The translations under genes and the position numbers were made by a program. 64,000 nucleotides of DNA, taken from positions 62,001 to 126,000 of the forward strand of contig JAGNZK010000001.1 in assembly GCA_017984435.1 (NCBI GenBank), given 5' to 3'. Below the pieces are notes generated by a model. It did no database searches, was not told the origin of the DNA, and worked only from the letters and a program-made list of their open reading frames with translations. This DNA is from Nitrosomonas sp. (GTDB taxonomy: Bacteria > Pseudomonadota > Gammaproteobacteria > Burkholderiales > Nitrosomonadaceae). Of this stretch, positions 11,022 through 54,138 are shown piece after piece (the first letter of the stretch is position 1; each line of letters begins with the position of its first letter).

Positions 11022-11218
11022 TTGCTCCACCCTCCCTCTGGCTGCCACACGTCTTGCTATATCCGCGACAGATTTGGCTCGCCATTGAATGCTTGCTGGC
11101 TTAGGACACCGTAGCAGCATTCCAGATCAGTGAGGCTTTTTTGGTAGCAGGATTTGAGACTTTCGGCCTTTTTGATACTGGTAACCAATCCGACGATACA
11201 ATTACACACGCACATATT

Positions 11219-11389
11219 CTATTTCTCTTCCACAATGCGATCATCTTTCAGAACCACAACACCCGCTCCAATACGCTTGGCTCGTTCACGAGCCCTTTGC
11301 GCAGCCCGTTTCATGGCGATCTCGGCTGCGGCCAAATCGGGATCGCGTTGTTTTTGTTTCTTGTTTGAATTTGCAGTCTGATTATTCAT
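11219..11389 (-). CDS. 56-residue basic protein overlapping the zeta-type kinase gene
   Basis: A small frame that starts MNNQTANSNKKQKQRDPDLA and ends RIVEEK. Its ATG shares four bases (ATGA) with the stop of the upstream kinase gene, a classic translational-coupling arrangement. The middle is a charged helix rich in Ala, Arg and Lys, and the end reads IGAGVVVLKDDRIVEE. I do not recognise the family. The tight overlap suggests it is the functional partner of the kinase, perhaps its antitoxin or cofactor, though that is inference. Confidence 0.7.
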   Translation of the reverse strand: MNNQTANSNKKQKQRDPDLAAAEIAMKRAAQRARERAKRIGAGVVVLKDDRIVEEK

Positions 11390-11916
11390 GTTTTCGTCCC
11401 TTCATTGATTAATCTTGGTTCACTGCCGGAATTATCATAAAGTGCCCATTCATCAACAATTGGTTTATAAAGATTCGAGAAATTCCGCAATCCTGCCGCG
11501 AAGCGCCGCCGAATCACCGGTTCTGGAATGTTGTGGCCGCCTTCGCGAACCCGCTGCCGGACTCGGGCGACCGCCAACTCCTGGGATGCCAATTGAAGAA
11601 AAAACAATTTAACGATATAGCCATCGGCTTGCCATTCTGGAATCAATCCGGCATATACCCGGCCACTCAAGGTTGTTTCAAAGGCAAAATTTTCACCGCG
11701 CCGGGCGTGGTCTAAAATTTCTTTCAGCATCAATCTACCGGCCCGGAAAGCTGCCCGTTCAGGCTCAAGGGGAGCCAATCCGGCTGCAATGAGATCAGCG
11801 TTAATAAAGGCAGGACATGCGGCTTCCCGCGGAAGAAATTCTTCCGCGAAAGTTGTTTTTCCAGCACCATTTGGTCCGGCGATAATGATGATTTTTTTCT
11901 CTGAATTATCACTCAC
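11386..11916 (-). CDS. Zeta-toxin-like P-loop kinase
   Basis: A 176-residue AAA/zeta-type kinase. Walker A is AGPNGAGKTT, followed by INADLIAAGL and the FETTLSG stretch typical of zeta/UMP-kinase-like proteins. True zeta toxins phosphorylate UDP-N-acetylglucosamine; many chromosomal relatives of this short type are uncharacterised. The start is probably a GTG at 11916. The stop overlaps the ATG of the 56-residue gene. It heads a run of minus-strand genes leading into the RT-nitrilase gene. Confidence 0.85.
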   Translation of the reverse strand: MSDNSEKKIIIIAGPNGAGKTTFAEEFLPREAACPAFINADLIAAGLAPLEPERAAFRAGRLMLKEILDHARRGENFAFETTLSGRVYAGLIPEWQADGYIVKLFFLQLASQELAVARVRQRVREGGHNIPEPVIRRRFAAGLRNFSNLYKPIVDEWALYDNSGSEPRLINEGTKT

Positions 11917-35400: not shown

Positions 35401-35553
35401 AAATAAAATCCCGATGTTCACAAACGCATCAATGCATCACTTTCACTTGGATCCATGCAGTGGAAATGAGTGGCGATTGTACTATATCTGTTCCATGTTT
35501 CAGATAATTACGCGGGACGATAATAGTTGAATGTTCATGTAGAATTACGCATT

Positions 35554-37251: not shown

Positions 37252-37611
37252 TTATGACTTATTCTTTAACCGGTCTTTAAGATCGGCAAACGGATTGAAC
37301 GTAGCCATCGTTTCAGTTTTTCCGCCATCAACACGACCCATCGCATCTTTCAGCTTGGAGTGCTCGTTTTCATGGCAATAAGTACAGAGCAGTTCCCAAT
37401 TACTGCCATCGGGCGGATTATCATCGTGATTGCTGTTCTTGTGATGTACTTCCAGCAGCTGCAGGTTTTTGTGATCGAATGTGCGCGCGCAACGGCCACA
37501 TACCCACGGGAATAGTTTGAGTGCTTGTTCCCGGTAACCCTGAGCGCGTTTTTCTGCATTCCGCCGTGCTTCCAGAACTATTTTGTCCAATTTGCTGGTA
37601 TCTTTTACCAT
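37252..37611 (-). CDS. YajD-type HNH nuclease family protein
   Basis: A 119-residue protein with the YajD/HNH pattern: CGRCARTFDH, then LEVHHKNSNHDDNPPDG and LLCTYCHENEHSK, giving a four-cysteine zinc site around the HNH core. The role is unknown; HNH proteins of this type are common on chromosomes. It is convergent with the ABC gene. Confidence 0.88.
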   Translation of the reverse strand: MVKDTSKLDKIVLEARRNAEKRAQGYREQALKLFPWVCGRCARTFDHKNLQLLEVHHKNSNHDDNPPDGSNWELLCTYCHENEHSKLKDAMGRVDGGKTETMATFNPFADLKDRLKNKS

Positions 37612-37756: not shown

Positions 37757-40700
37757 CTAAGCGAAATCCGCCGTCAAATTAATCCCGACCAACAAAACTG
37801 CTGCCTCAGGAGAAGCCGCTGCATCACTGGTGTAGGTATGAAAACCGCCTTGGATCCCACCATCCGCCCAGTCACCCTGGAGAATCACTCGATCACCCTC
37901 ATTACCGTTTACTTTCAGGGTATTGCTGGTATCCGATAGATTGAGCACATCGGTTGCATTTAACGTCAATGTTTTGTCGCCGCTACCGCCATGCAGGTAA
38001 ATGATTTCGATGCCACTGATCTTGCCGCGCGCATCGGCCAAATCCAGATTCAGGTTGCCGCCCCCGCCCAAACTCAGGACATCGTTGTTCCCACTCCCAC
38101 CGTCCACTAACTGGAAGCCAAGATCGGATACCCTAATCCTGTCATTACCCGCGCCGCCATGGAACACATCCGCCCCACCATGGCCGATCATCCTGTCATT
38201 GCCATCGCCCCCCTCGAAGCGCTCTGCCGCCAAGGTGCCCGTGAGATTATCGTCGCCGGGTGTACCCGCGATTTCAGGTATCCCACTGCCAGAGTCATTG
38301 TGCCCAAAGATAATATAACTCGAACCCTTTTCAGGATCACCGACAATCAAATCATCAAAACCATCGCCATTGACATCCCCTGCACCGCTAACTGAAGTTT
38401 TTGGGAATGGGCCTCCCACTACCCCATCCAGGCGAAAACCATTGCTGCCATCCAAATTAGACAATGACAGTGTAGCGCTGAACCCTGAAGCCTTACCATA
38501 CACCACGTAACTAACATCAGAGTACTTTACTTCTGGAAGGTTAAAAGATGAGGTTCTGCCGACAATTAAATCGTCAAATCCGTCCCCGTTGAAATCTCCG
38601 GCGTTGCTAACCAACATTCCAGCCTCAAGATTTTTCGACGCGCCATCCAAGCGGAAACCATTATGGCCGTCGAGGCTCGATAAATCTATGGCAGCATCAA
38701 ACCCCGATGCCTTGCCAAACACCACATAACTAAAGCCAGTAGTGCGACCTGGAGCAGCGATAAACACATCATCAAAACCATCGCCATTGACATCTCCCGC
38801 ATCGCTGACCGATCCACCTGAAGAATCATTTGCAATGCCATCCAGGCGAAAACCGTTATTGCCGTCGAGGCTGGATAAATCCATCGCAGCATCAAAACCC
38901 GATGCCTTGCCAAACACCACGTAACTGGCACCGGCATATCTACCGTTCGAGTCGACACCATGAGCACCGATAAGCACATCATCAAAACCATCGCCATTCA
39001 CGTCTCCGGCACCACTGACAGAAAAACCCGACTTATCACCTTGCTCTGCGCCATCCAGACGAAAACCGTTACTACCATTAAGACTGGATAATTCCATAGC
39101 GGCATCAAACCCCGATACCTTGCCAAACACCACATAACTGCTACCAGATGAGGATCCGTTTGGATTAGCACCGTTAGCACCGACAATCACATCATCAAAC
39201 CCGTCACCGTTGATGTCCCCTGCACCACTAACCGAAAATCCCGCAGCGTCACGCTTCGCCACTTCAATCAAACTGAAGCCAATGTGGCCATCCAAGCTGG
39301 AAAGTTGCAATGAGGCATCAAAACCGGAAGCCTTGCCAAAAACCACGTAGGTCTTGCTCACGGAAAAATCGTTATAAGTACCAATAATTACATCGTCAAA
39401 ACCATCGCCATTCACATCTCCGGCACTACTGACTGATCGACCCGACCGATCAGACACCGCTTCACCATCCAGACGGAAACCGTTACTGCCATCAAGATTG
39501 GCCAAATCCGTCGTAGCGTCAAAACCGGCGGCTTTGCCAAACACCACGTAGCTGGAGCCGGATGCAAAGATACCGTTCGAGGTGGCTCCCTGAGCCCCGA
39601 CAATCACATCGTCAAAACCGTCGCCGTTCACGTCTCCGGCATCACTGACTGAACTACCGTAACCGCCTCCGTTGAGGCGAAAACCGTTACTACCGTTGAG
39701 ACTGGACAGGCTCATGACGCCAGGTGGCGGTGGATTGGCGCTTACAGCCGTATCGATCCGAACTATCGTCCCTCGATTAGTATAGATATGATAATTCCCA
39801 TCAATACCCCCGTCCCCCCAGCCCTTACTATTCACCCCGACGACACGATCTCCTGAATCGCCGTCGATAGTAAATGTATGCGTAGTGTCTGATAAGGTTA
39901 ACAAATCTGAAAACGAGAATTTCAATGTGTTGTTTCCACTACCCGTCAGATCAATGGTCTCGATGCCCGTGATCTTGTCGTGGAAATCAGCCAAATCCAG
40001 ATGAACACCGCTGCCAGCTAATTCCAAAGTATCGATGCCGGTACCGCCCTCCACCGATTGAAAGTCAAGATCAGGTAATGAAATGACATCGTCGCCGGCA
40101 CCGCCCTGAAATATATCCGCCCCGCCGCCGCCAATCAGCGTATCGTTGCCGCCATTGCCCTCGAATCGCTCAGCTGCCGTGGTACCTGTAAATGTGTCAT
40201 CCTCGTCTGAGCCCGTAAAAGACACTATGCCGCCGCTAAAGTTGCTGCTGCCAAATAGCACGTAGCTTGCGCCTGAGTTGTAGCCATTGACATCCGCTGT
40301 AGGAGCACCAACAAGCAAATCATCAAAACCATCGCCATTAATGTCCCCTGCGCCGCTGACCGATGTACCCGAAGCATCACCTGCAGCTACACCATCCAAC
40401 CGGACGCCGGTGTCACTATCCAGACTGGATAGGTTAATCACCGCACCGAAACCCGCAGCCCTGCCAAACACCAAGTAACTGGAGCCGGAGTTCTCGCCGT
40501 TCGGATCAGTATAGGGAGCACCGACAAGCAGATCATCAAAACCATCGCCATTGACATCTCCGGCGTTGCTAACCGAAGCGCCCGAAAAGTCATCCGCCGC
40601 TACACCATCCAGGCGGAAACCGTTATTACCATCGAGACTGGATAGATTCATGGAGGCACTAAAACCTGAAGCCTTGCCAAACACTACATAGCTGGAACCG

Positions 40701-41617
40701 GAGTTCTCACCATTTGGATCGGCTCCTTGGGATCCGATAATCAAATCATCAAAACCATCATCGTTGACATCTCCGGCACTACTAACCGAAGCACCCAACC
40801 GATCATCCGCCGCCACACCATCGAGGCGAAAGCCGTTATTGCCATCGATGCTGGCTAGATCCGTAGTAAACCCCGAAGCCTTGCCAAACACTACATAGCT
40901 GGTGCCGGAGTTATCACCGTTCCGATCGGCACGCGGCCCACCGACAATCACATCATCAAAACCATCACTGTTGACGTCACCTGCACCACTGACCGAAGCA
41001 CCAATATAATCACCAAATACTTCGTCCAAATTGAAGTCACCATCCACGTGGGCGTCAAACCCGGAAGCTTTACCGAACACCACATAGCTGACACCCCCGT
41101 AGGAACCACTAGCACCACCGGCAATAACATCGTCAAAACCATCGCCGTTAATATCTCCCGCGCTGCTGACTGAGAAAGAAGCCGAACCAAGAGAACCAGG
41201 ACTCCCATCCAGAATGAAACCATTACTACCATCCAGGCTGGATAAATCCAGAGAAGCATTAAAACCTGATGCCTTACCAAACACCACATAACCGGCAATA
41301 CCGGTGTAATAACTATTAGCGCCGACAATCACATCATCAAAACCATCGCCATTAACGTCTCCAGCACTGCTGACGGCCCTCGCTGACCCATTCAAACTGA
41401 AACCATTGCTGCCATCGAGGCTGGATAAATCCAGCGTGGCATTAAACCCGGACACTTTGCCAAATACCACGTAACTGGCGCCGGAACCATCGACAATAAA
41501 GTCATCAAAGCCGTCGCCATTAACATCCCCCGCATTGCTGACCGGTCCGCCCGCACCATCCACGCGGAAACCATTGCTGCCATCGAGGCTGGATAAATTA
41601 ATTGTTGTTATTGCCAT
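37757..41617 (-). CDS. Giant FG-GAP beta-propeller/RTX protein, two modules
   Basis: About 1286 residues. It begins MAITTINLSSLDGSNGFRV, directly with a propeller strand and no signal peptide. Module 1 has seven FG-GAP blades, an RTX-like run (GNGGNDTLIGGGGADVFQGG) and a closing domain ending in HIYTNRGTIVRID; a PPPPG linker leads to module 2 with seven more blades, a second RTX run and the C-terminal closing domain (LLVGINLTADFA). Each blade holds DxNxDGxxD, a calcium loop as in integrin alpha. Cysteine appears absent. An ATG 18 bases upstream is possible; AAGGA supports the chosen start. Probably secreted or surface-exposed; the route is unproved. No function is assigned. Confidence 0.88.
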   Translation of the reverse strand: MAITTINLSSLDGSNGFRVDGAGGPVSNAGDVNGDGFDDFIVDGSGASYVVFGKVSGFNATLDLSSLDGSNGFSLNGSARAVSSAGDVNGDGFDDVIVGANSYYTGIAGYVVFGKASGFNASLDLSSLDGSNGFILDGSPGSLGSASFSVSSAGDINGDGFDDVIAGGASGSYGGVSYVVFGKASGFDAHVDGDFNLDEVFGDYIGASVSGAGDVNSDGFDDVIVGGPRADRNGDNSGTSYVVFGKASGFTTDLASIDGNNGFRLDGVAADDRLGASVSSAGDVNDDGFDDLIIGSQGADPNGENSGSSYVVFGKASGFSASMNLSSLDGNNGFRLDGVAADDFSGASVSNAGDVNGDGFDDLLVGAPYTDPNGENSGSSYLVFGRAAGFGAVINLSSLDSDTGVRLDGVAAGDASGTSVSGAGDINGDGFDDLLVGAPTADVNGYNSGASYVLFGSSNFSGGIVSFTGSDEDDTFTGTTAAERFEGNGGNDTLIGGGGADIFQGGAGDDVISLPDLDFQSVEGGTGIDTLELAGSGVHLDLADFHDKITGIETIDLTGSGNNTLKFSFSDLLTLSDTTHTFTIDGDSGDRVVGVNSKGWGDGGIDGNYHIYTNRGTIVRIDTAVSANPPPPGVMSLSSLNGSNGFRLNGGGYGSSVSDAGDVNGDGFDDVIVGAQGATSNGIFASGSSYVVFGKAAGFDATTDLANLDGSNGFRLDGEAVSDRSGRSVSSAGDVNGDGFDDVIIGTYNDFSVSKTYVVFGKASGFDASLQLSSLDGHIGFSLIEVAKRDAAGFSVSGAGDINGDGFDDVIVGANGANPNGSSSGSSYVVFGKVSGFDAAMELSSLNGSNGFRLDGAEQGDKSGFSVSGAGDVNGDGFDDVLIGAHGVDSNGRYAGASYVVFGKASGFDAAMDLSSLDGNNGFRLDGIANDSSGGSVSDAGDVNGDGFDDVFIAAPGRTTGFSYVVFGKASGFDAAIDLSSLDGHNGFRLDGASKNLEAGMLVSNAGDFNGDGFDDLIVGRTSSFNLPEVKYSDVSYVVYGKASGFSATLSLSNLDGSNGFRLDGVVGGPFPKTSVSGAGDVNGDGFDDLIVGDPEKGSSYIIFGHNDSGSGIPEIAGTPGDDNLTGTLAAERFEGGDGNDRMIGHGGADVFHGGAGNDRIRVSDLGFQLVDGGSGNNDVLSLGGGGNLNLDLADARGKISGIEIIYLHGGSGDKTLTLNATDVLNLSDTSNTLKVNGNEGDRVILQGDWADGGIQGGFHTYTSDAAASPEAAVLLVGINLTADFA

Positions 41618-41728
41618 GATCATGGGTCCTTGCAAAATAATTGATCAATCAACCTGCTGGAAAAAGTAGCAGAAATAGCACACGCTATTTCATAAACTAA
41701 TACCGTCAGATATTACGCCAGAAAAATC

Positions 41729-41752
41729 CTACCTACAACCGGGTAGTTTTTT
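41729..41752. terminator. Possible bidirectional terminator between two giant genes
   Basis: CTACC (41729-41733) and GGTAG (41742-41746) form a short stem; T residues follow on the plus strand and an ATTTTT run on the minus strand. It would separate transcription of the 1337-residue gene from the next gene. Confidence 0.4.
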
Positions 41753-41781
41753 ATTGAGGGGCTTCTGAAGAACCCGTATTT

Positions 41782-41852
41782 GTCATTCCAAACGCAGTGA
41801 GGAATCTTAGGGAATCAACAGCATAGATTTCTCGCGATGCTCGAAATGACAG
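41782..41852 (+). repeat. Dispersed palindromic repeat, copy C
   Basis: The clearest copy: GTCATTCCAAACGCAGTGAG at the left and CTCGCGATGCTCGAAATGAC at the right, so the ends are inverted repeats. It lies in the 300-bp gap between two giant genes; the rest of this gap holds only the possible terminator. Confidence 0.75.
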
Positions 41853-41936
41853 TTATTAAGGCCTGCGGTAGACTCGAGGGAACAGCGAGATGCTGATTAT
41901 GTTTGAGATGAACTTGTCGACCATAACCAACGTTCC

Positions 41937-44900
41937 CTAAGCGAAATCCGCCGTCAAATTAATCCCGACCAACAAAACTGCTGCCTCAGGAGAAGCCGCT
42001 GCATCACTGGTGTAGGTATGAAAACCGCCTTGGATCCCACCATCCGCCCAGTCACCCTGGAGAATCACTCGATCACCCTCATTACCGTTTACTTTCAGGG
42101 TATTGCTGGTATCCGACAAATTGAGCACATCGGTTGCATTTAACGTCAATGTTTTGTCACCGCTACCACCGTGCAGGTAAATGATTTCGATGCCACTGAT
42201 CTTGCCGCGCGCATCGGCCAAATCCAGATTCAGGTTGCCGCCCCCGCCCAAACTCAGGACGTCGCTGTTACCACTCCCACCGTCCGCCAACTGGAAGCCA
42301 AGATCGGATACCCGGATCCTGTCATTACCCGCGCCGCCATGAAACACATCTGCGCCGCCATGACCGATCATCCTGTCATTGCCATCGCCGGCGTCGAAAA
42401 TATCCGCGGTTTGGGTGCCGATCAGATGATCGTTTCCAGGGGTGCCAGGATGGGTCACGGTACCGCCAGAGCCGATTCTACCAAACACCACGTAGCTGGA
42501 ATCGGATTCCGGATTACCAACCATCAAATCATCCAAACCATCGCCATTCACATCTCCAGCGCTGCTGATCGAGGTTTTTGAAAATGAAACCACGATGCCA
42601 TCCAGGCGGAAACCATTACTACCATCCAAATCGGATAAAGACAGCGTAGCGCTGAACCCTGAAGCCTTACCATACACGACGTAACTGACATCAGAATATT
42701 GTTGTGTTGCGGTAAAGTTTGTAGGTGCGGTTCTACCGACAATCAAATCGTCAAACCCGTCCCCGTTGAAATCTCCGGCATCGCTAACCCACATGCCATC
42801 CTCAAATTTTCCGATCATGCCATCCAGACGGAAACCGTTATTGCCGTCGAGGCTCGATAGATCCATCGCGGCACCAAAACCCGATGCCTTGCCAAACACC
42901 ACATAACTGGAACCGGAATGATGACCTTTTAAACCAGCGCCTTGAGCACCAATAATCACATCATCAAAACCATCGCCATTCACATCTCCCGCATTGCTGA
43001 CGGATCGACCCAAGATATCACCCTGTGCAATGCCATCCAGGCGGAAACCATTATTGCCGTCAAGGCTGGATAAATTCATGGCAGCATCAAATCCGGATGC
43101 CTTACCAAACAACACATAACTGGCACCGGAATAATTACCGTTCGAGTCGACACCATAAGCACCGATCAGCACATCATCAAAACCGTCGCCATTGACATCC
43201 CCGGCACCGCTGACTGAAAAGCCCGACTGATCACCTTGCTCTGCGCCATCCAGGCGGAAACCGTTACTACCATTAAGGCTGGATAAATTCATTTCAGCAT
43301 CAAAACCGGAAGCCTTGCCAAACACCACGTAACTCGAACCGGATTGACTACTGCCATTCGCATCGGCATGAAAAGCGCCCACAATCACGTCATCAAAACC
43401 ATCACCGTTGACATCCCCCGCACCGCTAACCGAAAGTCCTGCAGAATCACGCATCTCCACTTCATTCAAGCCGAAGCCGTTACTACCATCGAGACTGGAT
43501 AAATCCATCGCAGCGTCAAAACCTGAAGACTTGCCAAACACCACGTAGGTGGTATTCACGGAAAAATCGTTATAAGAACCGATAATTACATCGCCAAAAC
43601 CATCGCCATTCATATCCCCTGCACTGCTGACTGATCTACCCGACCGATCGTATCCCACCACGCCATCCAGACGGAAACCGTTACTACCATCGAGGCTGGA
43701 TAAATCCATCGCAGCGTCGAAACCGGTAGCCTTGCCAAACACCACGTAGCTGGAGCCAGCGCCGGAAATAGTATTCGGATTACTGAAGGGAGCGCCGATA
43801 ATCACATCATCGAAACCGTCACCATTCATATCCCCTGCACTGCTGACTGATCTGCCCGAATAATCCCCTGCTCCATCCAGGCGGAAACCGTTACTGCCGT
43901 TGAGACTGGTCACGCTCATGACGCCAGGTGGCGGTGGATTGGCGCTTACAGCCGTATCGATCCGAACTATCGTCCCTCGATTAGTATAGATATGATAATT
44001 CCCATCGATACCGCCATCCCCCCAGCCCTTACTATTCACGCCAACGACCCTGTCGCCTGCATTGCCGTGGATCGTAAACGTGTGCGTAGTGTCCGATAGG
44101 GTGAGCAAATCTGAAAACGAGAATGTCAGCGTATTGTCTCCACTGCCCGTCAGATCAATGGTCTCGATGCCGACGATTGTGTCGTGAAAACCAGCCAGAT
44201 TTAAATGGACACCGCCACCGGTCACTGCCAAAGTATCAATACCGGTACCGCCATCCACCGATTGGAAGCCAAGTCCAGACAAGGAAATGACATCATCACC
44301 GGCACCGCCCTGAAATACATCCGCCCCGCCGCCGCCAATCAGGGTATCGTTGCCGCCATTACCCTCGAAGCGCTCCGCTGCCGTGATGCCGGTAAACGTG
44401 TCATCCCCGTCCGTACCTATAAAAGTCACTGTGCCACTAAAGTTGCTGCTGCCGAATATCACGTAACTGGCACCGGAATTATTACCGTTCGAACCGGCAT
44501 AAAGTGACCCAATAAACAAATCGTCAAAACCATCGCCATTGACGTCTCCTGCGGTGCTGACTGAATATCCCGATCGGTTATTCGCCGCCACACCATCCAG
44601 GCGGACGCCCATATTGCTGTCCAGACTGGAAAGGTTAATCGTGGCACCAAAACCCGAAGCCTTACCAAACACCACGTAACTGGATCCGGAGTTTTCACCG
44701 TTCGGATCAGCCAAAGCAACACCGATAAGTAAATCAGCAAAACCGTCACCGTTGACATCACCGGCATTGCTCACCGAACCGCCCGAAGAATCATTCTCCG
44801 CGACTCCATCCAGACGAAAACCATTATTGCCGTCGAGGCTGGATAAATCCATCGCAGCACTAAAACCGGAAGCCTTGCCGAATACCACATAACTCGAACC

Positions 44901-45950
44901 GGATTTCTCGCCATTCGAATCAGCTTCCGAAGCACCAATAATCACATCATCAAAACCATCGCCGTTGACATCCCCGGCATTACTAACTGATAAACCTGAA
45001 CGATCATTTATAGTCTCACCATCCAGGCGAAACCCGTTACTGCCATCCAAGTTAGAAAGATCAAGCGTGGCATCAAAGCCCCCTGACTTTCCGAAAACCA
45101 CATAACTGGAGCCATATCCAAAACCATTTGGATTTGCGTGAGGCGCTCCAACAATCACATCATCAAAACCATCGCCGTTGATGTCGCCCGCGCTGCTGAC
45201 TGAAGTACCCAAGTCGCTATACGTCGCCCCTCCAATCAATTGAAAACCATTGGTGCCATCCAAATCAGACACATTCATCTGAGCATTAAATCCTCCAGCC
45301 TTGCCAAATACGACATAGCTGTCATCTATGTCGTTAAAAGTAAAGGAAGTGGGTGCACCAAGAATTAAATCATCGAAACCATCGCCATTCATGTCTCCGG
45401 CGCTACTAACATGACTGCCATCCGATCTAAACTGTGTCACACGAAAGCCATTACTTCCATCCAAACTCGATAGGTCCATCGTAGGACTAAAGCCCGAAGA
45501 CTTACCAAATACCACATAACTGTAACCAATATCAAAAGGATAGAGCGCGGAGGTAGAGTCACGTAAATGCGCCCCAACCAGCACATCATCAAAACCATCG
45601 CCGTTGATATCCCCAGCATTGCTGATCGAATCCATTTGTATCGAATAATTACTATAGCTGTACAAAATGGCTTCTCCATCCAGGCGAAAGCCGTCAGTAC
45701 CATCGAGACTGGATAAATCCATCGCAGCATCGAAACCGGCAGCCTTGCCGAATACCACGTAACTGGAACCGGAATTGCTACCGTTCGGATCAGCGCCAAA
45801 GGCCCCTATAATCACATCATCAAAACCATCGCCATTGACATCCCCGGCATTACTGACCGATTTTCCCGAAAAATCATCTTCTGCTACGCCATCTAAACGG
45901 AAACCGTTACCGCCATTGAGACTGGATAAATCAATTGTTGTTAGTGCCAT
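41937..45950 (-). CDS. Giant FG-GAP beta-propeller/RTX protein, two modules
   Basis: 1337 residues starting MALTTIDLSSLNGGNGFRL, AGGAAC upstream. Two modules, each with exactly seven FG-GAP blades, then an RTX-like segment (GNGGNDTLIGGGGADVFQGG in the first, GDGNDRMIGHGGADVFHGG in the second) and a closing domain with LSDTTHTFTI or LSDTSNTLKV. The modules join through VSANPPPPGVMS. The last 130 residues are almost identical to those of the neighbouring 1286-residue protein, so the two genes are recent duplicates or are being homogenised. No signal peptide, no cysteine seen, strongly acidic. Confidence 0.9.
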   Translation of the reverse strand: MALTTIDLSSLNGGNGFRLDGVAEDDFSGKSVSNAGDVNGDGFDDVIIGAFGADPNGSNSGSSYVVFGKAAGFDAAMDLSSLDGTDGFRLDGEAILYSYSNYSIQMDSISNAGDINGDGFDDVLVGAHLRDSTSALYPFDIGYSYVVFGKSSGFSPTMDLSSLDGSNGFRVTQFRSDGSHVSSAGDMNGDGFDDLILGAPTSFTFNDIDDSYVVFGKAGGFNAQMNVSDLDGTNGFQLIGGATYSDLGTSVSSAGDINGDGFDDVIVGAPHANPNGFGYGSSYVVFGKSGGFDATLDLSNLDGSNGFRLDGETINDRSGLSVSNAGDVNGDGFDDVIIGASEADSNGEKSGSSYVVFGKASGFSAAMDLSSLDGNNGFRLDGVAENDSSGGSVSNAGDVNGDGFADLLIGVALADPNGENSGSSYVVFGKASGFGATINLSSLDSNMGVRLDGVAANNRSGYSVSTAGDVNGDGFDDLFIGSLYAGSNGNNSGASYVIFGSSNFSGTVTFIGTDGDDTFTGITAAERFEGNGGNDTLIGGGGADVFQGGAGDDVISLSGLGFQSVDGGTGIDTLAVTGGGVHLNLAGFHDTIVGIETIDLTGSGDNTLTFSFSDLLTLSDTTHTFTIHGNAGDRVVGVNSKGWGDGGIDGNYHIYTNRGTIVRIDTAVSANPPPPGVMSVTSLNGSNGFRLDGAGDYSGRSVSSAGDMNGDGFDDVIIGAPFSNPNTISGAGSSYVVFGKATGFDAAMDLSSLDGSNGFRLDGVVGYDRSGRSVSSAGDMNGDGFGDVIIGSYNDFSVNTTYVVFGKSSGFDAAMDLSSLDGSNGFGLNEVEMRDSAGLSVSGAGDVNGDGFDDVIVGAFHADANGSSQSGSSYVVFGKASGFDAEMNLSSLNGSNGFRLDGAEQGDQSGFSVSGAGDVNGDGFDDVLIGAYGVDSNGNYSGASYVLFGKASGFDAAMNLSSLDGNNGFRLDGIAQGDILGRSVSNAGDVNGDGFDDVIIGAQGAGLKGHHSGSSYVVFGKASGFGAAMDLSSLDGNNGFRLDGMIGKFEDGMWVSDAGDFNGDGFDDLIVGRTAPTNFTATQQYSDVSYVVYGKASGFSATLSLSDLDGSNGFRLDGIVVSFSKTSISSAGDVNGDGLDDLMVGNPESDSSYVVFGRIGSGGTVTHPGTPGNDHLIGTQTADIFDAGDGNDRMIGHGGADVFHGGAGNDRIRVSDLGFQLADGGSGNSDVLSLGGGGNLNLDLADARGKISGIEIIYLHGGSGDKTLTLNATDVLNLSDTSNTLKVNGNEGDRVILQGDWADGGIQGGFHTYTSDAAASPEAAVLLVGINLTADFA

Positions 45951-46000
45951 AATTTATGTTCCTAAAATGTAAATTCCCATCCATTCTCTCCTAATTTAGG

Positions 46001-46024
46001 AATTATTTCATTCCCTCATTGCAT
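46001..46024 (-). promoter_or_regulatory. Conserved upstream element of a giant gene, copy 1
   Basis: The minus-strand sequence contains AATGAGGGAATGAAATAATT, 51 bases before the ATG at 45950. The same element lies 51 bases before the ATG of the 1965-residue gene. It may be a shared promoter or leader; no standard box is obvious. Confidence 0.35.
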
Positions 46025-46083
46025 CATGATAACCATTTGATTCTTTGCAAAAACGATATCGATTGAAAACAAGTAGCATGGCA

Positions 46084-49000
46084 TCAAACCACCGGAAAAT
46101 CCGTTGTCACGTTCGCGCCCACCAACAGCACCGCGTCGCCCTGCGTATAAGCGTGGAAATAACCATCGCCGCGCGCGCCTTCGTCCGCCCAGCCGCTGCT
46201 CAGCCCGATGATATGATCGCCGGCATTCCCGTTGACTTTCAGGGTATTCGTACTATCCGACAGGTTGATCAATCCCGCTGCGGTTAACGTTACCGCATTG
46301 TCGCCGTTGCCGTACAGGCAAATGGTCTCAATGCCGATGATGTTGCCGCCCAGGCTGTTTAAATCCAGGTTCAAATCCTTGCCGGTCAGATGCAGGGCAT
46401 CGTTGCCGGCGCCACCTTCGACCAACTGGAAATTCAGATCGGACACACGAATATTGTCGTCGCCCGCACCGGCACCAAACACATCCGCGCCACCGCGACC
46501 GATTATGTTGTCGTTGCCGTCGCCGGCGTCGAAAATATCCGCCGCCGAGCTGCCAATCAGATTATCGTTGCCGGGGGTGCCGGGGTGGGTAACATTTGTA
46601 CCGCCAAAATCGCTGCGGCCAAAGATGATATAGCTGGAGCCAGAATCACGTCCGTTCGGATCAGCGCCAGGAGCACCAATGATCAAATCATCAAAACCAT
46701 CGCCATTAATGTCTCCCGCACCGCTCACCGAATTCCCTGCCATATCATAACGATCCACGCCTCTTATTAGGAGACCATTATTGTCAATTAGACTGGATAA
46801 ACTCACTATGGCATCAAATCCCGAGGCCTTTCCGAACATCACGTAACTAGCGCCTGACCTATCGCCAGTTCCATCGTATGATGAAGCTTCAGGTAAACCA
46901 ATAATCAAATCATCGAAGCCATCGCCATTGACATCGCCGGCAGAACTAAACGCTACGCTTGGGAAACCTGAAGTGGCACTATTCAATTGGAAACCGTTGC
47001 TGCCATCTAGATTAGCTAAATCCATCGCAGCATCAAAATCCGTTGCTTTGCCAAATACCACATAGCTACCGCCGTTATAACCTTCCTGGTTAACGCCGCT
47101 AGACCCGACAATTAAATCATTAAAACCATCACCATTCACATCGCCGGCAGAACTGACTGATGCGTTCAAATAACTATGTTTTTCTACACCATTAATAAGA
47201 CGAAAACCGTTGCTACCATCCAAAGTAGATAAATCCATCGCAGCATCGAAACCGGAGGCTTTACCAAATACCACATAATCGGAGCTAGGAGCAGCACGTC
47301 CATTCGAATCAGTTCCAAATGCACCGACAATCAAGTCGTCAAACCCATCACCATTGACATCACCCGCATTACTAACGGATCTGCCTGCCCCATCATATTT
47401 TGACGCACCATCTAAACGAAAACCGTTATTACCGTTGAGGCTGGCTAAATCCAGCGTAGCATTAAAACCAAATGCACTACCGAATACAACATAACTAGAA
47501 CCGGAAGCATTGCCATTAAAATCAGCAGATGGATTACCTACAATCAGATCATCAAAACCATCACCATTGACATCACCCGCATTACTCGAGTTGATAAACC
47601 CATCCAGCTTAAATCCATTATTTCCATCCAGATTGGATAAATTCATCGCGGCATCAAAATTTGATGCTTTACCAAATACCACATAATCGGTCCCCCATGC
47701 ACCAACGATCAAATCATCAAAACCATCGCCATTCACGTCACCTGCATCACTCACCGATCTGCCTGAGCTATCAAATTCTGGTAAGCCATCCAATCGGAAA
47801 CCGTTATTACCGTCAAGGCTGGCTAAATCCAACGTAGCATTAAAACTAGATGCTTTACCGAATACGACATAACTAGAACCCGATCTATTGCCGCCAAAAT
47901 CAGTATAAGGGGCCCCAATAATCACATCATCAAACCCATCGCCATTAACGTCTCCCGCATTGCTGACTGAATAGCCTGATTCATCATCATTAGATACCCC
48001 ATCCAGGCGGAAGCCGTTGTCACCATTCAGCTCGCTTAAGCTGATCACGCCGCGAACCGGCAAGTCTGTGGTAATAGATGAAAATACCCGTAGCACCGTG
48101 CCGGAATTCGTATAAATATGATAATTGCCTTCCATACCTTCATCCAGCCAGCCGTCTTTGAGCCCCACCACTTGACCACCGCCATCAATAGTAAAGATAT
48201 TGGTCGTATCAGATAAACTCAGCAAGTCTTGCAAGGTTAATGTCAATGTATTAGAGCCGAACCTGTCCAGATCAATCGTTTCAATGCCATGGATCGTCTC
48301 GCGAAAATTGGCCAGATCCAGATTCAAATCAATAGCGCCTGACAGTTCCAGGATGTCAGTGCCGGTTCCGCCGTCCAGCGACTGGAAATCAAGATCCGGC
48401 ACGTTGATGATATCGTCGCCGTCCTCTCCCTGAAACACATCCCTGCCGCCACGACCGATCATGATGTCATTGCCGTTGCCGGCTTCAAAACGTTCCGCCG
48501 TCGTCGTGCCCGTCAGAACATCATCTCCGGGCGTCCCCGAAAAAACCGCCTCGCCGGCAAAGTTCTTTTTGCCGAATATGACATAACTGGCGCCGGATCT
48601 TTCGTCGGCATAGGGAGCACCCACAATCAAATCATCAAAACCATCGTTGTTGACATCCCCTGCAGTGCTGACGGATGTACCTGCACGATCACCGGAAACG
48701 CCTTCGAGGCGAAAACCGTTATTGTCCACGATGCTGGATAAATTCATCACCGCATCGAAACCGGATGCCTTGCCGAATACGACATAACTGGCTGGATTAT
48801 CATAAAAACGTCCGGGCGCACCGACAATCAAATCATCAAAACCATCGCCATTCACATCCCCAGCCGTGCTGGCCGATTTACCTGAAAAAGCCTCTCGTGC
48901 CGCGCCATCCAAACGAAAACCATTATTACCATCAAGATTCGATAAGTTCATGGCAGCATCAAAACCGGACGCCTTGCCAAATACCACATAGCTGGAACCT

Positions 49001-51981
49001 GAGTTCTCTCCATTCGGATCGGCATCAGAAGCACCGATAATCACATCGTCAAAACCGTCTCCGTTGACATCTCCCGCAGCGCTGAAGATCGCACTCATCG
49101 CAAAAGGAGAATGCGTTACCGCACCATCCAATCTGAAACCGTTATTGCCATCAATGGCGGATAAATTCATCGCAGCATCAAAACCGGCCGCCTTACCGAA
49201 CACGATATAACCACCAGTGGAAGTACCCATGATGGCATCATCAAAACCATCGCCATTGACATCTCCAGCACTACTGACCGATGCACCCGCATAATTTCGC
49301 TTCCCTGCTCCGTCCAAACGAAAACCATTGGTACCGTCAAGGCTGGCTAAATCCAACACATCGCTGAAAGCGGAAGCTTTTCCAAACACCACGTAGCCGG
49401 CTCCGTAACCGTAGGAGTAATAGTTATACTCAGAGCTATATCTTGGGCCAGCGCTAGGGGAGCCGACGATCACATCATCAAAGCCATCACCGTTGATATC
49501 TCCGGCATCGCTGATAACCGCTCCGTGCGAACCAAAATGAGGATCCGCACCTTCCAGACGAAACCCGTCATTGCCATCAATGTCAGATAAATTCATCGTG
49601 GCATCAAAACCGGATGCCTTGCCGAATACCACGTAGCCGCCATCGGGCGCACCGATAATTACATCATCAAAACCATCGCCATTCAAATCTCCCGCGCTGC
49701 TAACCGCTGCATAAGTGTATACGCCACCCAATCGGAAACCGTCACGACCATCAAGATCGACTAGATTCATCGAGGCATCAAAAGCGGATGCCTTGCCGAA
49801 TACCACATAACTGACGCCGGAGTATCCACCATTCAGCTTAACTCTGGGAGCACCGACAATCACATCATCAAATCCATCGCCATTCACATCTCCCGCATTG
49901 CTGACCAATTTTCCCGAATCCAGACGGAAACCATTATCCCCGTTGATGTTAGCAAGACTGAGCACACCGCGTGTCGGCAGATCCGTATTCACGTCCGAAT
50001 CCACACGCAGCGTCGTTCCGTCATTGGTATAAATATGATAATTGCCGTCCATGCCCTCGTCCGTCCAACCATCATCGGCGAGTCCGATAACATGGTCATT
50101 CGTATTGCCGTTCACGGTAAAAACAGACGTAGTCTCTGACAGGCTGAGCAAATCCGCTAAAGTCAAGGTCAATGAATTCATGCTTAATTGATTGCCAGCG
50201 AAACCCTCCAAGCCGATCAAATCAATCGTCTCGATTCCTGTGATCCTGCCTTTAAAATCGCCGAGGTCCAAATCCAGATTACTATACCCCGTTAATTCCA
50301 GGATATCGGCCCCCGTTCCGCCGTCGAGGGATTGAAAAGCAAGGTCAGGCACCAGAATTGTGTCGTCACCAGCGTCTCCCTGAAACACATCCGCGCCGCC
50401 ACGGCCCAACAGGATGTCGTTGCCATCACCTGCTTCGAAGCGCTCCCCGGTTGCGGTGCCCGTCAGCGTGTCGTCTCCCGATGTGCCCAGATATAGCGCC
50501 TCACTGGCAATAAAATTGCCGCCGAAGATCACATACCCGGCACCGATTGCCCCAACAATCAAATCGTCAAAACCATCGGCATTGACATCGCCGGCCGTGC
50601 TGACCGATTTTCCGGAATGATCATTCGCCGCCACGCCATCGAGACGAAAACCGTTACCGCCGTTGAGGCTGGATAGATTGATCGCCGCAGCAAAACCGGA
50701 TGCCTTGCCAAACATCACATAACTGGCGCCGGGAGCGGAAGAATTATAGTTACTACTAGCATTCGGATCGGCATCCGCAGCACCGATAATCAAGTCATCG
50801 AAACCATCGCCGTTGACATCCCCGGCCGTGCTAACTGATTTCCCCGAAAGATCATACTCTGCCACGCCATCCAGACGAAAACCGTTACTGCCGTTAAGGC
50901 TGGATAAAGTGATCGCGGCATCAAAACCGGATGCCTTGCCAAACACCACGTAACTGGCGCCGGGACCGGCGAAATTGAGAAAACTGCTATCGTTGGGGTC
51001 AGCGAAGGCAGCACCAACGATTACATCATCGAAACCATCGCCATTGACATCCCCGGCAGTACTCACCGATAAGCCCGATCGATCGCCTTCTGCAACGCCA
51101 TCCAGGCGAAAACCGTCGCTGCCATCAAGACCGGATAGATTCATCGCGGCATCGAACCCCGATGCCTTGCCAAACACCACGTAACTGGCGCCACTACCGT
51201 CACCGTTGCCGTCGGCATAAGTAGCACCCACGATCAAATCATCAAAGCCATCGCCATTGACGTCCCCGGCATCGCTAACCGAAGTGCCCGCACGATCATA
51301 TGGCGTCGCCCCATCCAGACGGAAACCGTTATTGCCATCAAGATTGGATAAATTCACCACGGCATTAAAATCCGATGCCTTGCCAAAGACTACGAAGCTG
51401 GCACCGGCTTGGGTACCGTTCAAATTGGCATACGAAGCCCCCACAATCAAATCATCGAAGTCATCGCCATTGACGTCTCCGGCAGTGCTGACCGAACCAC
51501 GTGTAAAGCCATCCACCGCCGTACCATTCAAACGGAAACCGCTTTTACCATCCAGATCGGATAAGCTCAATGTAGCATCAAACCCCGATGCCTTGCCAAA
51601 AACCACGTAATCATTATCTAAAGCGCCGACGATCACATCGTCAAACCCATCGCCATTGACATCGCCGGCGTTACTTACAGAGATCCCGGCGCTGGAATAC
51701 TTATCTCCATTCAATCGAAATCCGTTATCGCCATCAAGGCTGGATAAGTTGATCCCCGCATCAAACCCGGCCGCCTTGCCGAACACCACATAACTGGAAC
51801 CGGAGTACCTGCCGTTCGGATCGGCTTTATAAGCACCGACAATCACATCATCAAAACCATCGCCATTGACGTCCCCGGCATTACTGACCGAGCCACGAGA
51901 AGCATTATCCGCTGCGAATCCCTCCATGCGAAAACCGTTACCGCCATTCAGAATGGATAAATTAATGATCGGTATGGCCAT
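46084..51981 (-). CDS. Giant FG-GAP beta-propeller/RTX protein, three modules
   Basis: 1965 residues, the longest of the set, starting MAIPIINLSILNGGNGFRM with AAGGAG upstream. Three modules of about 650 residues, each with seven FG-GAP blades, an RTX-like stretch (GDGNDILLGRGGADVFQGD, GNGNDIMIGRGGRDVFQGE, GDGNDNIIGRGGADVFGAG) and the closing LS(D/E)(T/S)T domain. Modules meet at DLPTRGVLS and DLPVRGVIS. Some blades are shortened (blade 3 of module 3). The C-terminus (VGANVTTDFPVV) is nearly identical to that of the 673-residue protein. One cysteine (ETICLYG). No N-terminal signal; calcium-binding surface or secreted protein is the best guess. Confidence 0.9.
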   Translation of the reverse strand: MAIPIINLSILNGGNGFRMEGFAADNASRGSVSNAGDVNGDGFDDVIVGAYKADPNGRYSGSSYVVFGKAAGFDAGINLSSLDGDNGFRLNGDKYSSAGISVSNAGDVNGDGFDDVIVGALDNDYVVFGKASGFDATLSLSDLDGKSGFRLNGTAVDGFTRGSVSTAGDVNGDDFDDLIVGASYANLNGTQAGASFVVFGKASDFNAVVNLSNLDGNNGFRLDGATPYDRAGTSVSDAGDVNGDGFDDLIVGATYADGNGDGSGASYVVFGKASGFDAAMNLSGLDGSDGFRLDGVAEGDRSGLSVSTAGDVNGDGFDDVIVGAAFADPNDSSFLNFAGPGASYVVFGKASGFDAAITLSSLNGSNGFRLDGVAEYDLSGKSVSTAGDVNGDGFDDLIIGAADADPNASSNYNSSAPGASYVMFGKASGFAAAINLSSLNGGNGFRLDGVAANDHSGKSVSTAGDVNADGFDDLIVGAIGAGYVIFGGNFIASEALYLGTSGDDTLTGTATGERFEAGDGNDILLGRGGADVFQGDAGDDTILVPDLAFQSLDGGTGADILELTGYSNLDLDLGDFKGRITGIETIDLIGLEGFAGNQLSMNSLTLTLADLLSLSETTSVFTVNGNTNDHVIGLADDGWTDEGMDGNYHIYTNDGTTLRVDSDVNTDLPTRGVLSLANINGDNGFRLDSGKLVSNAGDVNGDGFDDVIVGAPRVKLNGGYSGVSYVVFGKASAFDASMNLVDLDGRDGFRLGGVYTYAAVSSAGDLNGDGFDDVIIGAPDGGYVVFGKASGFDATMNLSDIDGNDGFRLEGADPHFGSHGAVISDAGDINGDGFDDVIVGSPSAGPRYSSEYNYYSYGYGAGYVVFGKASAFSDVLDLASLDGTNGFRLDGAGKRNYAGASVSSAGDVNGDGFDDAIMGTSTGGYIVFGKAAGFDAAMNLSAIDGNNGFRLDGAVTHSPFAMSAIFSAAGDVNGDGFDDVIIGASDADPNGENSGSSYVVFGKASGFDAAMNLSNLDGNNGFRLDGAAREAFSGKSASTAGDVNGDGFDDLIVGAPGRFYDNPASYVVFGKASGFDAVMNLSSIVDNNGFRLEGVSGDRAGTSVSTAGDVNNDGFDDLIVGAPYADERSGASYVIFGKKNFAGEAVFSGTPGDDVLTGTTTAERFEAGNGNDIMIGRGGRDVFQGEDGDDIINVPDLDFQSLDGGTGTDILELSGAIDLNLDLANFRETIHGIETIDLDRFGSNTLTLTLQDLLSLSDTTNIFTIDGGGQVVGLKDGWLDEGMEGNYHIYTNSGTVLRVFSSITTDLPVRGVISLSELNGDNGFRLDGVSNDDESGYSVSNAGDVNGDGFDDVIIGAPYTDFGGNRSGSSYVVFGKASSFNATLDLASLDGNNGFRLDGLPEFDSSGRSVSDAGDVNGDGFDDLIVGAWGTDYVVFGKASNFDAAMNLSNLDGNNGFKLDGFINSSNAGDVNGDGFDDLIVGNPSADFNGNASGSSYVVFGSAFGFNATLDLASLNGNNGFRLDGASKYDGAGRSVSNAGDVNGDGFDDLIVGAFGTDSNGRAAPSSDYVVFGKASGFDAAMDLSTLDGSNGFRLINGVEKHSYLNASVSSAGDVNGDGFNDLIVGSSGVNQEGYNGGSYVVFGKATDFDAAMDLANLDGSNGFQLNSATSGFPSVAFSSAGDVNGDGFDDLIIGLPEASSYDGTGDRSGASYVMFGKASGFDAIVSLSSLIDNNGLLIRGVDRYDMAGNSVSGAGDINGDGFDDLIIGAPGADPNGRDSGSSYIIFGRSDFGGTNVTHPGTPGNDNLIGSSAADIFDAGDGNDNIIGRGGADVFGAGAGDDNIRVSDLNFQLVEGGAGNDALHLTGKDLNLDLNSLGGNIIGIETICLYGNGDNAVTLTAAGLINLSDSTNTLKVNGNAGDHIIGLSSGWADEGARGDGYFHAYTQGDAVLLVGANVTTDFPVV

Positions 51982-52031
51982 GATCGATACTCCTTAAAAA
52001 TAATTTTCGATAAGTTCCTGCATCATTCAGA

Positions 52032-52055
52032 AATTGTTTCATTCCCTCATTTCAT
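52032..52055 (-). promoter_or_regulatory. Conserved upstream element of a giant gene, copy 2
   Basis: The minus strand carries AATGAGGGAATGAAACAATT, one base different from the copy at 46001 and again 51 bases before a start codon (51981). Confidence 0.35.
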
Positions 52056-52116
52056 TGTTCCATGGTGATCCGGTGCTTTTCCGCAGCGGTATCGACAGAA
52101 AACCGTCCGCGTGAAA

Positions 52117-54138
52117 TCAAACCAGCGGAAAATCCGTTGTCACGTTCGCGCCCACCAACAGCACCGCGTCGCCCTGCGTATAAGCGTGGAAATAACCATC
52201 GCCGCGCGCGCCTTCGTCCGCCCAGCCGCTGCTCAGCCCGATGATATGATCGCCGGCATTCCCGTTGACTTTCAGGGTATTCGTACTATCCGACAGGTTG
52301 ATCAATCCCGCTGCGGTTAACGTTACCGCATTGTCGCCGTTGCCGTACAGGCAAATGGTCTCAATGCCGATGATGTTGCCGCCCAGGCTGTTTAAATCCA
52401 GGTTCAAATCCTTGCCGGTCAGATGCAGGGCATCGTTGCCGGCGCCACCTTCGACCAACTGGAAATTCAGATCGGACACACGAATATTGTCGTCGCCCGC
52501 ACCGGCACCAAACACATCCGCGCCACCGCGGCCGATCAGGTTGTCGTTGCCGTCGCCGGCGTCGAAAATATCTGCCGCGGATGTGCCGATCAGATTATCG
52601 TTACCAGGAGTGCCAGGGTGAGTAACATCTGGATAGCTAAAGTCACTTCTGCCGAATATTATGTAACTGGAGCCGGAAGAATAGCCGTTCGGATCAGCTT
52701 GAGGCGCACCGACGATCAAATCATCAAACCCGTCACCGTTGACATCTCCGGCGCCGCTAACCGATGCGCCAAAAGCATCGCTTCCCACTACCCCATCCAA
52801 GCGAAAACCATTTTTACCATCCAGACTGGCTAAATCCATCGCCGCTTCAAAACCGGATGCCTGGCCAAACACCACATAACTGGAACCGGTGCCGCTCGAG
52901 TTATTGCCATTCGAAGCAGCATTGGGAGCACCGATAATCAAATCATCAAACCCGTCACCATTCACATCTCCTGCACTACTGACCGAACTGCCCGATTCGT
53001 CATATGGTGCCGCCCCATCCAGCCGGAAACCATTATTGCCATCCAAACTGGACAAACTTATCGCGGCGTCAAACCCTAAAGCTTTACCAAATACCACGTA
53101 ACTGGCGCCGGTGTGGTATCCATTCGAGGTAGCACCTTCGGCACCAACAATCACATCATCAAAACCGTCGCCGTTAATGTCTCCTGCATTGCTGACTGGA
53201 GTGAGGAAAAAGCCTGTCTCGACTCCATCCAGACGGAATCCATTACTACCATTGAGATTGGATAAATCCAAGGCAGCTTTAAAACCGGCAGCCTGGCCAA
53301 ACACCACGTAACTGGAACCGGAATTTTCGTCATTTGGGTCAGCCCTCGAAGCGCCGATAATCACATCATCAAAACCATCGCCGTTGACATCCCCGGCATC
53401 GCTCACCAAACTGCCCGAATAATCAGATACTGCCACTCCATCCAAACGAAACCCATTACTGCCATCGAGACTAGATATATCCAGTGCAGCTTCAAAACCG
53501 TTCGCTTTGCCGAACACCACGTAGCTGGAACCGGCGTTGTAGTTGCCGTTCGGACTAGCAAAGAGAGCCCCGATAATCACATCATCAAAACCATCTCCAT
53601 TGATGTCTCCTGCATTGCTGACAGAGCCACCAAATAGATCATACGCCTTCACCCCATCGAGACGAAATCCATTGCTGCCATTGAGGCTGGATAAATCCAT
53701 CGCTGCGCTAAAACCGGCAGCCTGGCCAAACACCACATAACTGGAACCGGACTCCAAGCCGTTCGCGGCAGCTCCAGGAGCGCCGATAATCAAATCATCA
53801 TTTCCATCACCATTCACGTCTCCTGCATTGCTAACCATAAGACCTGATTGTTCATGAGTTTTCCCATCCAGACGAAATCCATTACTACCATCGAGACTGG
53901 ATAAATTCATTGCTGCGCTAAAACCGACAGCCTGGCCAAACACCACATAACTGGAACCGGAATTTTCGTCATTTGGGTCAGCCCTCGAAGCGCCGATAAT
54001 CACATCATCAAAACCATCACCATTTACATCCCCAGCATTGCTCACCGAACTACCCGAGAAATTAAATACTGCCGTTCCATCCATGCGAAAACCATTATTG
54101 CCGTTGAGATTGGATAAGTGAATACTGGTAATTGCCAT
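52117..54138 (-). CDS. FG-GAP beta-propeller/RTX protein, single module
   Basis: 673 residues: the basic unit of the family in one protein. Begins MAITSIHLSNLNGNNGFRM with GAAGGAGC upstream. Seven FG-GAP blades (each ending in SSYVVFGQA or similar) cover about residues 10-495, then an RTX-like run GDGNDNLIGRGGADVFGAG and the closing domain with LSDSTNTLKVNGNAGDHI. The final 140 residues and the DNA encoding them are nearly identical to the end of the 1965-residue protein. It is first in the transcription order of the cluster. Confidence 0.9.
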   Translation of the reverse strand: MAITSIHLSNLNGNNGFRMDGTAVFNFSGSSVSNAGDVNGDGFDDVIIGASRADPNDENSGSSYVVFGQAVGFSAAMNLSSLDGSNGFRLDGKTHEQSGLMVSNAGDVNGDGNDDLIIGAPGAAANGLESGSSYVVFGQAAGFSAAMDLSSLNGSNGFRLDGVKAYDLFGGSVSNAGDINGDGFDDVIIGALFASPNGNYNAGSSYVVFGKANGFEAALDISSLDGSNGFRLDGVAVSDYSGSLVSDAGDVNGDGFDDVIIGASRADPNDENSGSSYVVFGQAAGFKAALDLSNLNGSNGFRLDGVETGFFLTPVSNAGDINGDGFDDVIVGAEGATSNGYHTGASYVVFGKALGFDAAISLSSLDGNNGFRLDGAAPYDESGSSVSSAGDVNGDGFDDLIIGAPNAASNGNNSSGTGSSYVVFGQASGFEAAMDLASLDGKNGFRLDGVVGSDAFGASVSGAGDVNGDGFDDLIVGAPQADPNGYSSGSSYIIFGRSDFSYPDVTHPGTPGNDNLIGTSAADIFDAGDGNDNLIGRGGADVFGAGAGDDNIRVSDLNFQLVEGGAGNDALHLTGKDLNLDLNSLGGNIIGIETICLYGNGDNAVTLTAAGLINLSDSTNTLKVNGNAGDHIIGLSSGWADEGARGDGYFHAYTQGDAVLLVGANVTTDFPLV

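Follow-up and report, generated by a model that had tools for sequence, protein, structure and literature searches.

What do the four adjacent open reading frames (ORFs) on the minus strand at positions 37757-54138 of a 64,000-nucleotide (nt) window of Nitrosomonas DNA (contig JAGNZK010000001.1) encode, and from what kind of unit are they built? These ORFs, here called genes A, B, C and D (Table 1), carry repeated FG-GAP modules, and we consider it probable that their products are extracellular, calcium (Ca2+)-stabilised binding proteins made of portable modules, in each of which a closed seven-bladed integrin-type propeller is followed by a capped RTX roll. The fold, the Ca2+ motif in each blade, the module counts, the type I secretion system (T1SS) locus and the acidic plus hydrophobic C-terminal end behind this reading were all obtained from sequence or by prediction.

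The original prediction, made from the letters of the window, had counted seven FG-GAP blades in each of eight modules, and both a motif count and a blade profile agree with it. The AGDxNxDx core occurs 56 times in A-D, compared with 0-1 times in each of ten composition-preserving shuffles, and a stricter AGDxNxDxxD pattern recovers 53 of the 56; there is thus one Ca2+ motif (DxNxDG type) per blade, with 56 cores for 56 blades. The FG-GAP profile search proposed at that time (PF01839) passed in all four proteins, as separate stretches for 13 of 14 blades in A, 14 of 14 in B, 19 of 21 in C and 7 of 7 in D. When a 71-position blade profile built from blades of the same genome was applied, each of the eight modules resolved into an N-terminal tail, six blades and a terminal half blade, which together make seven; the tails begin at profile position 47 or 48, and one of the 48 blades preceding the half blades (the third in module 1 of gene A) was matched only to position 49 of 71. 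Closure of the ring by an N-terminal strand is the usual arrangement in propellers. Structure prediction of the 673-residue protein D with AlphaFold2, also suggested at the outset, gave a ring that closes with seven blades (approximately residues 16-494), with the RTX and closing region after it. An integrin-type closed seven-bladed fold is supported by this model for protein D and by profile for the other modules.

In the profile of the closing domains that follow the propellers (167 positions), roughly the first 45-80 positions correspond to the RTX rolls of CyaA and serralysins and the second half has no clear PDB match; the RTX family PF00353 scored above its cut-off in all four proteins. 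The motif LSD(T/S), initially reported for every closing domain, is present in seven of the eight, while module 1 of gene C has LSET. When 170 closing domains were placed on a quick tree (77 sole, 43 terminal and 50 internal), internal and end positions switched 9 times, versus 34-49 times in 200 shuffles and 37-49 times when shuffling was restricted to within genomes; with the last 50 residues removed, there were 11 switches versus 36-48 in shuffles. Because switches are so much rarer on the tree than in the shuffles, internal and end closing domains are, judged from this tree, distinct inherited classes, and since the internal ones form a separate lineage, multi-module genes would not be simply repeated one-module fusions. 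The end-type domains of genes A and B and of three further family genes (E, F and J) share 91-94% DNA identity, and those of C and D share 98%, although the propellers preceding these near-uniform domains are only 62-79% identical. At their ends, genes C and D share a tract of about 360 nt with 100% identity, which stops some 10 nt short of the stop codon, compared with 38-78% in 60-nt windows of their propellers (gaps counted as differences), and this shared tract looks like gene conversion in the alignment.

Export of these chains by a type I system, as originally proposed, appears likely. No signal peptide or membrane helix was seen by eye in A-D, and cysteine is nearly absent (2 in 5261 residues versus about 55 expected from 19 other window ORFs), both in line with the first description. 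A single locus in the genome (C11) contains adjacent genes for a PrtD-type ATPase, an HlyD-type adaptor and a TolC-type channel, all above NCBIfam cut-offs. The ABC gene next to the cluster was considered as the exporter and rejected in favour of the C11 locus: it resembles MsbA, scores under the MsbA cut-off and is convergent with the cluster. A strict C-terminal motif, in which an acidic residue precedes two to five hydrophobic ones at the extreme C-terminus, is present in A-D. Among 117 family proteins whose closing domain is of the end type, 94 have it, versus 2 of 111 other frames of at least 300 residues in the same loci, each of which overlaps an ORF of the family, and 1 of the 34 other window genes. 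Even C65, a family member that lacks an RTX closing domain, has the end ...TDFL. PrtD was found in 37 of 38 genomes with the family versus 38 of 48 others (Fisher p 0.02, with ancestry and completeness uncorrected). According to the accessible parts of the two sources, acidic plus hydrophobic ends have been described for PrtG- and AprA-type substrates (PMC2642768), and extracellular Ca2+ makes RTX rolls fold when it binds, which is thought to ratchet export (PMC6891781). We regard the C-terminal end of A-D as a putative uncleaved export signal.

Domain searches of A-D returned little beyond blades and rolls. Pfam matches were limited to FG-GAP families, RTX and a CarG-like match in D below its own cut-off, with no enzyme domain, no protease and no ectodomain beyond the propeller as in integrin alpha. 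The sole NCBIfam family above cut-off was the XAC2610-related domain NF047539, with totals of 56, 61, 35.2 and 42.5 bits in the four proteins (cut-off 35); no single stretch passes, the best one falls on a blade core, and the score is probably a match to the Ca2+ motif. The pore-forming RTX toxin family NF033943 reached 18-26 bits in three of the proteins (cut-off 1000) and was not listed for D. Promoter- and terminator-like sites at the cluster were not commoner than in shuffles.

We then considered blade number and module count among relatives. By profile, 17 of the 18 propellers in this genome are seven-bladed, and the eighteenth is two-bladed, in a truncated gene on contig C14. The genus sample covered 60 stretches around listed matches, i.e., a selection of matches, and yielded 127 stop-to-stop frames with at least three blade matches, from which 13 cut by stretch ends were removed (two of these repeated whole ORFs already present in an overlapping stretch). 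The remaining 114 ORFs contained 161 propellers, comprising 139 with seven blades, three with eight, seven with four, five with six and seven with other numbers. Several of the odd counts resemble pieces of split genes (4+3, 4+3 and 5+2); exceptions complete with tail, half blade and closing domain comprised three eight-bladed, four four-bladed and one six-bladed propellers, and an irregular gene of genome G077 also has one five-bladed and one six-bladed propeller. Seven blades were counted in 59 of 67 countable propellers in named records outside Nitrosomonas and in 43 of 57 in named Nitrosomonas loci, which overlap the genus sample. Given these counts and the intact exceptions, seven blades is strongly preferred but not fixed. 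The blade number of homologues had been named at the outset as a point at which the module idea could fail; it is mostly seven, but other numbers occur, and one near-orthologue pair that is 91% identical has seven blades in one member and six in the other. Length follows module count as first noted, with median frame lengths of 674, 1327 and 1939 amino acids (aa) in relatives with one, two and three modules (n = 64, 23 and 6), counted among ORFs with equal numbers of seven-bladed propellers and closing domains. Separately, four-bladed versions that seem intact, in that they have the tail, the half blade and the closing domain, come from four genomes and are 56-60% identical to each other (Table 1).

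Blades and propellers also appear to have been exchanged. Each of 912 blades at positions 1-6 was compared with the blades in other genes of its genome, and the closest one stood at the same position in 225 cases, versus 152 expected by chance (1 in 6), and blade position is therefore kept weakly. Single nearest-neighbour cases are noisy because the blades are much alike, and near-identical pairs at different positions are the firm cases: blades 1 and 6 in module 1 of gene E, for example, are 98% identical and share an identical DNA run of 151 nt. In a three-module gene compared between genomes G082 and G084, DNA identity is 77-100% nearly throughout but only 61-76% in propeller 3, and returns to 97-99% over part of the following closing domain; on this alignment, propeller 3 is a replaced propeller. 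Of the six blades scored in module 2, blades 2, 3, 4 and 6 are reciprocal nearest neighbours between genes A and B, which fits gene duplication. The original claim that whole propellers are the unit of duplication is only partly upheld: single blades have been copied within and between propellers, near-orthologues differ by one blade, and internal closing domains are a separate lineage. These proteins offer a natural experiment in which a ring keeps its blade number while its blades recombine, with 17 seven-bladed propellers here and 139 in the relatives sampled.

Mechanistically, the chains would stay unfolded in the low-calcium cytosol, be exported C-terminus first through a PrtD/HlyD/TolC-type system and reach their folded state outside, when the RTX rolls and blades take up Ca2+, with internal closing domains possibly acting as linkers and folding ratchets between propellers. 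In integrins, the loops between strands 2 and 3 and between strands 4 and 1 (2-3 and 4-1 loops) form the ligand face. Blade length here varies most around these two loops (standard deviation 3.4 and 2.3, respectively, and 1.1 for the 3-4 loop), and they could bind partners such as glycans, matrix or neighbouring cells. More propellers per chain might give more reach or avidity, and with partner-binding loops this would make a role in adhesion or matrix building likely. The family would diversify by exchange, with propellers and single blades copied and replaced and most end-type closing cassettes staying alike. If adhesion is mediated, the family would bear on the aggregation of some Nitrosomonas in nitrifying communities.

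The ratio of nonsynonymous to synonymous substitution rates (dN/dS) was estimated from 61 independent pairs of blades, all with a protein identity of at least 88%, a choice that lowers dN. It was 0.19, 0.22, 0.05 and 0.09 in strands 1 to 4, 0.04 in the Ca loop, and 0.27, 0.15 and 0.48 in the 2-3, 3-4 and 4-1 loops, respectively. Such values in all eight regions, together with a blade number mostly held at seven and a mostly intact end signal, make it highly improbable that this is a drifting repeat family without selected function, kept by tandem duplication, even though split, truncated or irregular copies do occur (on C14 here and in G021, G023, G062, G072 and G077). About equally remote is a cytoplasmic calcium-binding role, as Chouhan et al. 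inferred for their bacterial propellers and argued in the accessible text (PMC3192720); the lack of a visible signal peptide or membrane helix would suit it, but RTX repeats above cut-off, the PrtG-like C-terminal ends, a complete T1SS in the genome and the near absence of cysteine all point outward. A structural coat, in which the exported proteins form an acidic, Ca2+-bound surface layer or matrix without specific partners, is the stronger rival, though still unlikely: its copy number is high (11 family genes in this genome, one of them broken, and a run of 10 in one relative), the proteins are acidic (isoelectric point 4.05, 12% Asp) and the framework is conserved, but variation peaks in two loops that would share one face, propellers this divergent despite near-identical end domains would be odd for a lattice subunit, and 48 of 86 genus genomes lack a match to gene D at E <= 1e-40. 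The same absence led us to set aside an acidic coat as an ammonium sieve, an idea prompted by an archaeal paper (PMC11153153), against which we also counted that many hosts of the propeller plus closing module presumably lie outside ammonia-oxidising groups.

Several observations weigh against exported binding proteins diversified by exchange. Export, Ca2+ binding and partner binding are all predicted, and the ligand and role are what we infer from sequence. No T1SS gene lies beside the cluster, and the PrtD/HlyD/TolC locus does not adjoin it; PrtD is common without the family as well, in a comparison that takes no account of shared ancestry, and it is missing from one family genome, which is 89% complete. 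The strict C-terminal motif fails in 23 of 117 proteins, a looser motif is found in 106 of the 117 and in 16 of 111 controls as well, and gene G, near the end of contig C79, has no such motif. The end-type closing domain of gene H is only 62-71% identical to the others, and another three-propeller gene of G082 and G084 matches blade by blade in 21 of 21. No blade region exceeds a dN/dS of 1, and the 2-3 loop lies little above strands 1 and 2, so these ratios provide no evidence of positive selection in the variable loops. Extracellular binding proteins nevertheless remain our preferred reading. A more tentative extension, which we rate as about as unlikely as the coat, is a recombination-driven surface recognition repertoire, in which whole propellers and single blades would be exchanged among a dozen or more propellers per genome, altering mainly the ligand-face loops, while gene conversion would homogenise the end-type secretion cassette and the ring would stay at seven. 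If true, such a repertoire could serve in recognition of kin or of partners, or could vary the cell surface as a defence against phages or grazers. A phage-defence assignment was considered separately and rejected, with no PADLOC match for proteins A and D, the two with results.

Table 1. Coordinates of the gene cluster, its modules and other features mentioned in the text (window positions unless a contig or an L-numbered locus is named)
Feature	Position	Strand	Description
Gene A	37757-41617	minus	1286 aa from ATG, two modules; listed ORF start is TTG at 41635
Gene A module 1	39722-41617	minus	seven-bladed propeller and internal-type closing domain 39722-40219 (blade profile)
Gene A module 2	37760-39721	minus	seven-bladed propeller and end-type closing domain 37760-38272; C-terminus ...NLTADFA
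Gene B	41937-45950	minus	1337 aa, two modules
Gene B module 1	43926-45950	minus	closing domain 43926-44423
Gene B module 2	41940-43925	minus	closing domain 41940-42455
Gene C	46084-51981	minus	1965 aa, three modules
Gene C module 1	49969-51981	minus	closing domain 49969-50490
Gene C module 2	48052-49968	minus	closing domain 48052-48543
Gene C module 3	46087-48051	minus	closing domain 46087-46590, partner of the tract shared with gene D
Gene D	52117-54138	minus	673 aa, one module
Gene D closing domain	52120-52623	minus	RTX stretch, cap, C-terminal ...VTTDFPLV
ABC gene	35527-37212	plus	MsbA-like
HNH gene	37252-37611		YajD-type, adjoins the ABC gene
Reverse transcriptase gene	7980-11120	minus	fused to nitrilase domain
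Fic-like gene	6781-7818		beside the reverse transcriptase gene
Short P-loop-like gene	11386-11916		beside the reverse transcriptase gene
Family genes on C79	L009 10385-18421; 18729 onward	opposite	three genes beyond the right end of the window
N-extended family genes	L012 8142-10475; L014 7560-9140		shared N-terminal domain
Four-bladed versions	L096 (G028 C60 11332-12696); L076 and L077 (G060 C11 49359-50756); L102 (G062 C8 17749-19101); L106 (G081 C207 8627-10018)

Gene D was matched in 48 of 86 genus genomes at E <= 0.001 and in 38 of 86 at E <= 1e-40, the other 40 genomes of the family Nitrosomonadaceae had no match at E <= 1e-40, and a class sample gave matches in 14 of 368 genomes other than that of the window. 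Among the best 80 of the matches listed, named relatives came from Nitrosomonas, Magnetococcales, Methylococcaceae, Alphaproteobacteria, Planctomycetes, cyanobacteria and others. Tandem propeller plus closing modules, two to four per chain, occur in Magnetococcia, Alphaproteobacteria and Planctomycetota, and the cyanobacterial relatives listed lack a strong closing-domain match but have propellers, frequently two; judged by these sequence matches, the module ladder extends beyond the genus into other classes and phyla. Spread by plasmids was considered and rejected, with D matched in only 3 of 72,556 plasmid records and none across more than 80% of the query. On contig C79, two of the three family genes have two modules, and the third has one module, which includes an internal-type closing domain, and then breaks off near the contig end. 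Two further family genes (L012 and L014, the latter truncated) share a domain of about 250 residues ahead of the propeller, for which NCBIfam and PDB sequence searches gave no match and Pfam nothing beyond a weak one (E 0.18); a similar extension is present in eight ORFs of relatives and in none of A-D. Elsewhere in the window, the reverse transcriptase-nitrilase fusion was assigned by PADLOC to RT_UG5-nitrilase (DRT) with 1045 bits.

How do these proteins compare with known systems? In the literature searched, to which subscription papers mostly did not belong, we did not find propeller plus RTX closing modules, two closing-domain classes or blade and propeller exchange described; the accessible texts yielded nothing joining FG-GAP, type I secretion and RTX, and FG-GAP with Nitrosomonas led only to anammox enzymes. 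The parts are known, and their combination with RTX, the closing-domain classes and the exchange are apparently undescribed there. The view that the ladder was new holds for the combination with RTX, but not for tandem seven-bladed bacterial propellers, which according to the accessible text were published in 2011 (PMC3192720).

Like the RTX exoproteins serralysin, AprA and PrtG, the A-D proteins have a nonapeptide RTX roll, an acidic plus hydrophobic C-terminal end and a PrtD-type exporter in the genome, but their passenger is an integrin-type propeller, with no protease found by Pfam, and RTX domains recur within the chain. RTX adhesins of the LapA and MpIBP type are large, Ca2+-binding and repetitive with C-terminal RTX, features shared by A-D, in which Ca2+ binding is predicted. 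Unlike LapA-type adhesins, A-D have propellers and a PrtD-type exporter, with no Ig-like extender repeats among their Pfam matches at E <= 0.001. As regards the LPS-binding N-terminal domain and lattice of RsaA-type S-layer proteins, an N-terminal extension is present in two other genes of this genome, with no PDB sequence match, and in none of A-D. BapP of Pseudoalteromonas tunicata is likewise a predicted Ca2+-dependent biofilm adhesin with a beta-propeller, for which type I export was suggested, but according to the accessible text its single propeller, at the N-terminus, is five-bladed, and it combines a Sec signal peptide with 12 beta-sandwich repeats and has no propeller chain (PMC12153261). 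DDxP modular proteins were described without mention of propellers or FG-GAP in the accessible parts of PMC7730722. As in the amplified beta-propellers of Pereira and Lupas 2022, which include the FG-GAP/integrin type, blades within propellers are highly similar, but unlike what the available portions of that paper describe, here blades are apparently exchanged, their number is mostly seven and the propeller moves as part of a module (PMC9218822). The bacterial integrin-type propellers of Chouhan et al. likewise have seven FG-GAP repeats, a single Ca2+ site in each blade and a predicted closed ring, sometimes two in tandem; as far as the accessible text shows, the present proteins differ from those, inferred to be cytoplasmic, in having an RTX closing domain after each propeller, up to three propellers per chain (four elsewhere) and a predicted type I export signal at the end, which would give bacterial integrin-type propellers a likely extracellular, Ca2+-rich setting, contrary to that inference (PMC3192720).

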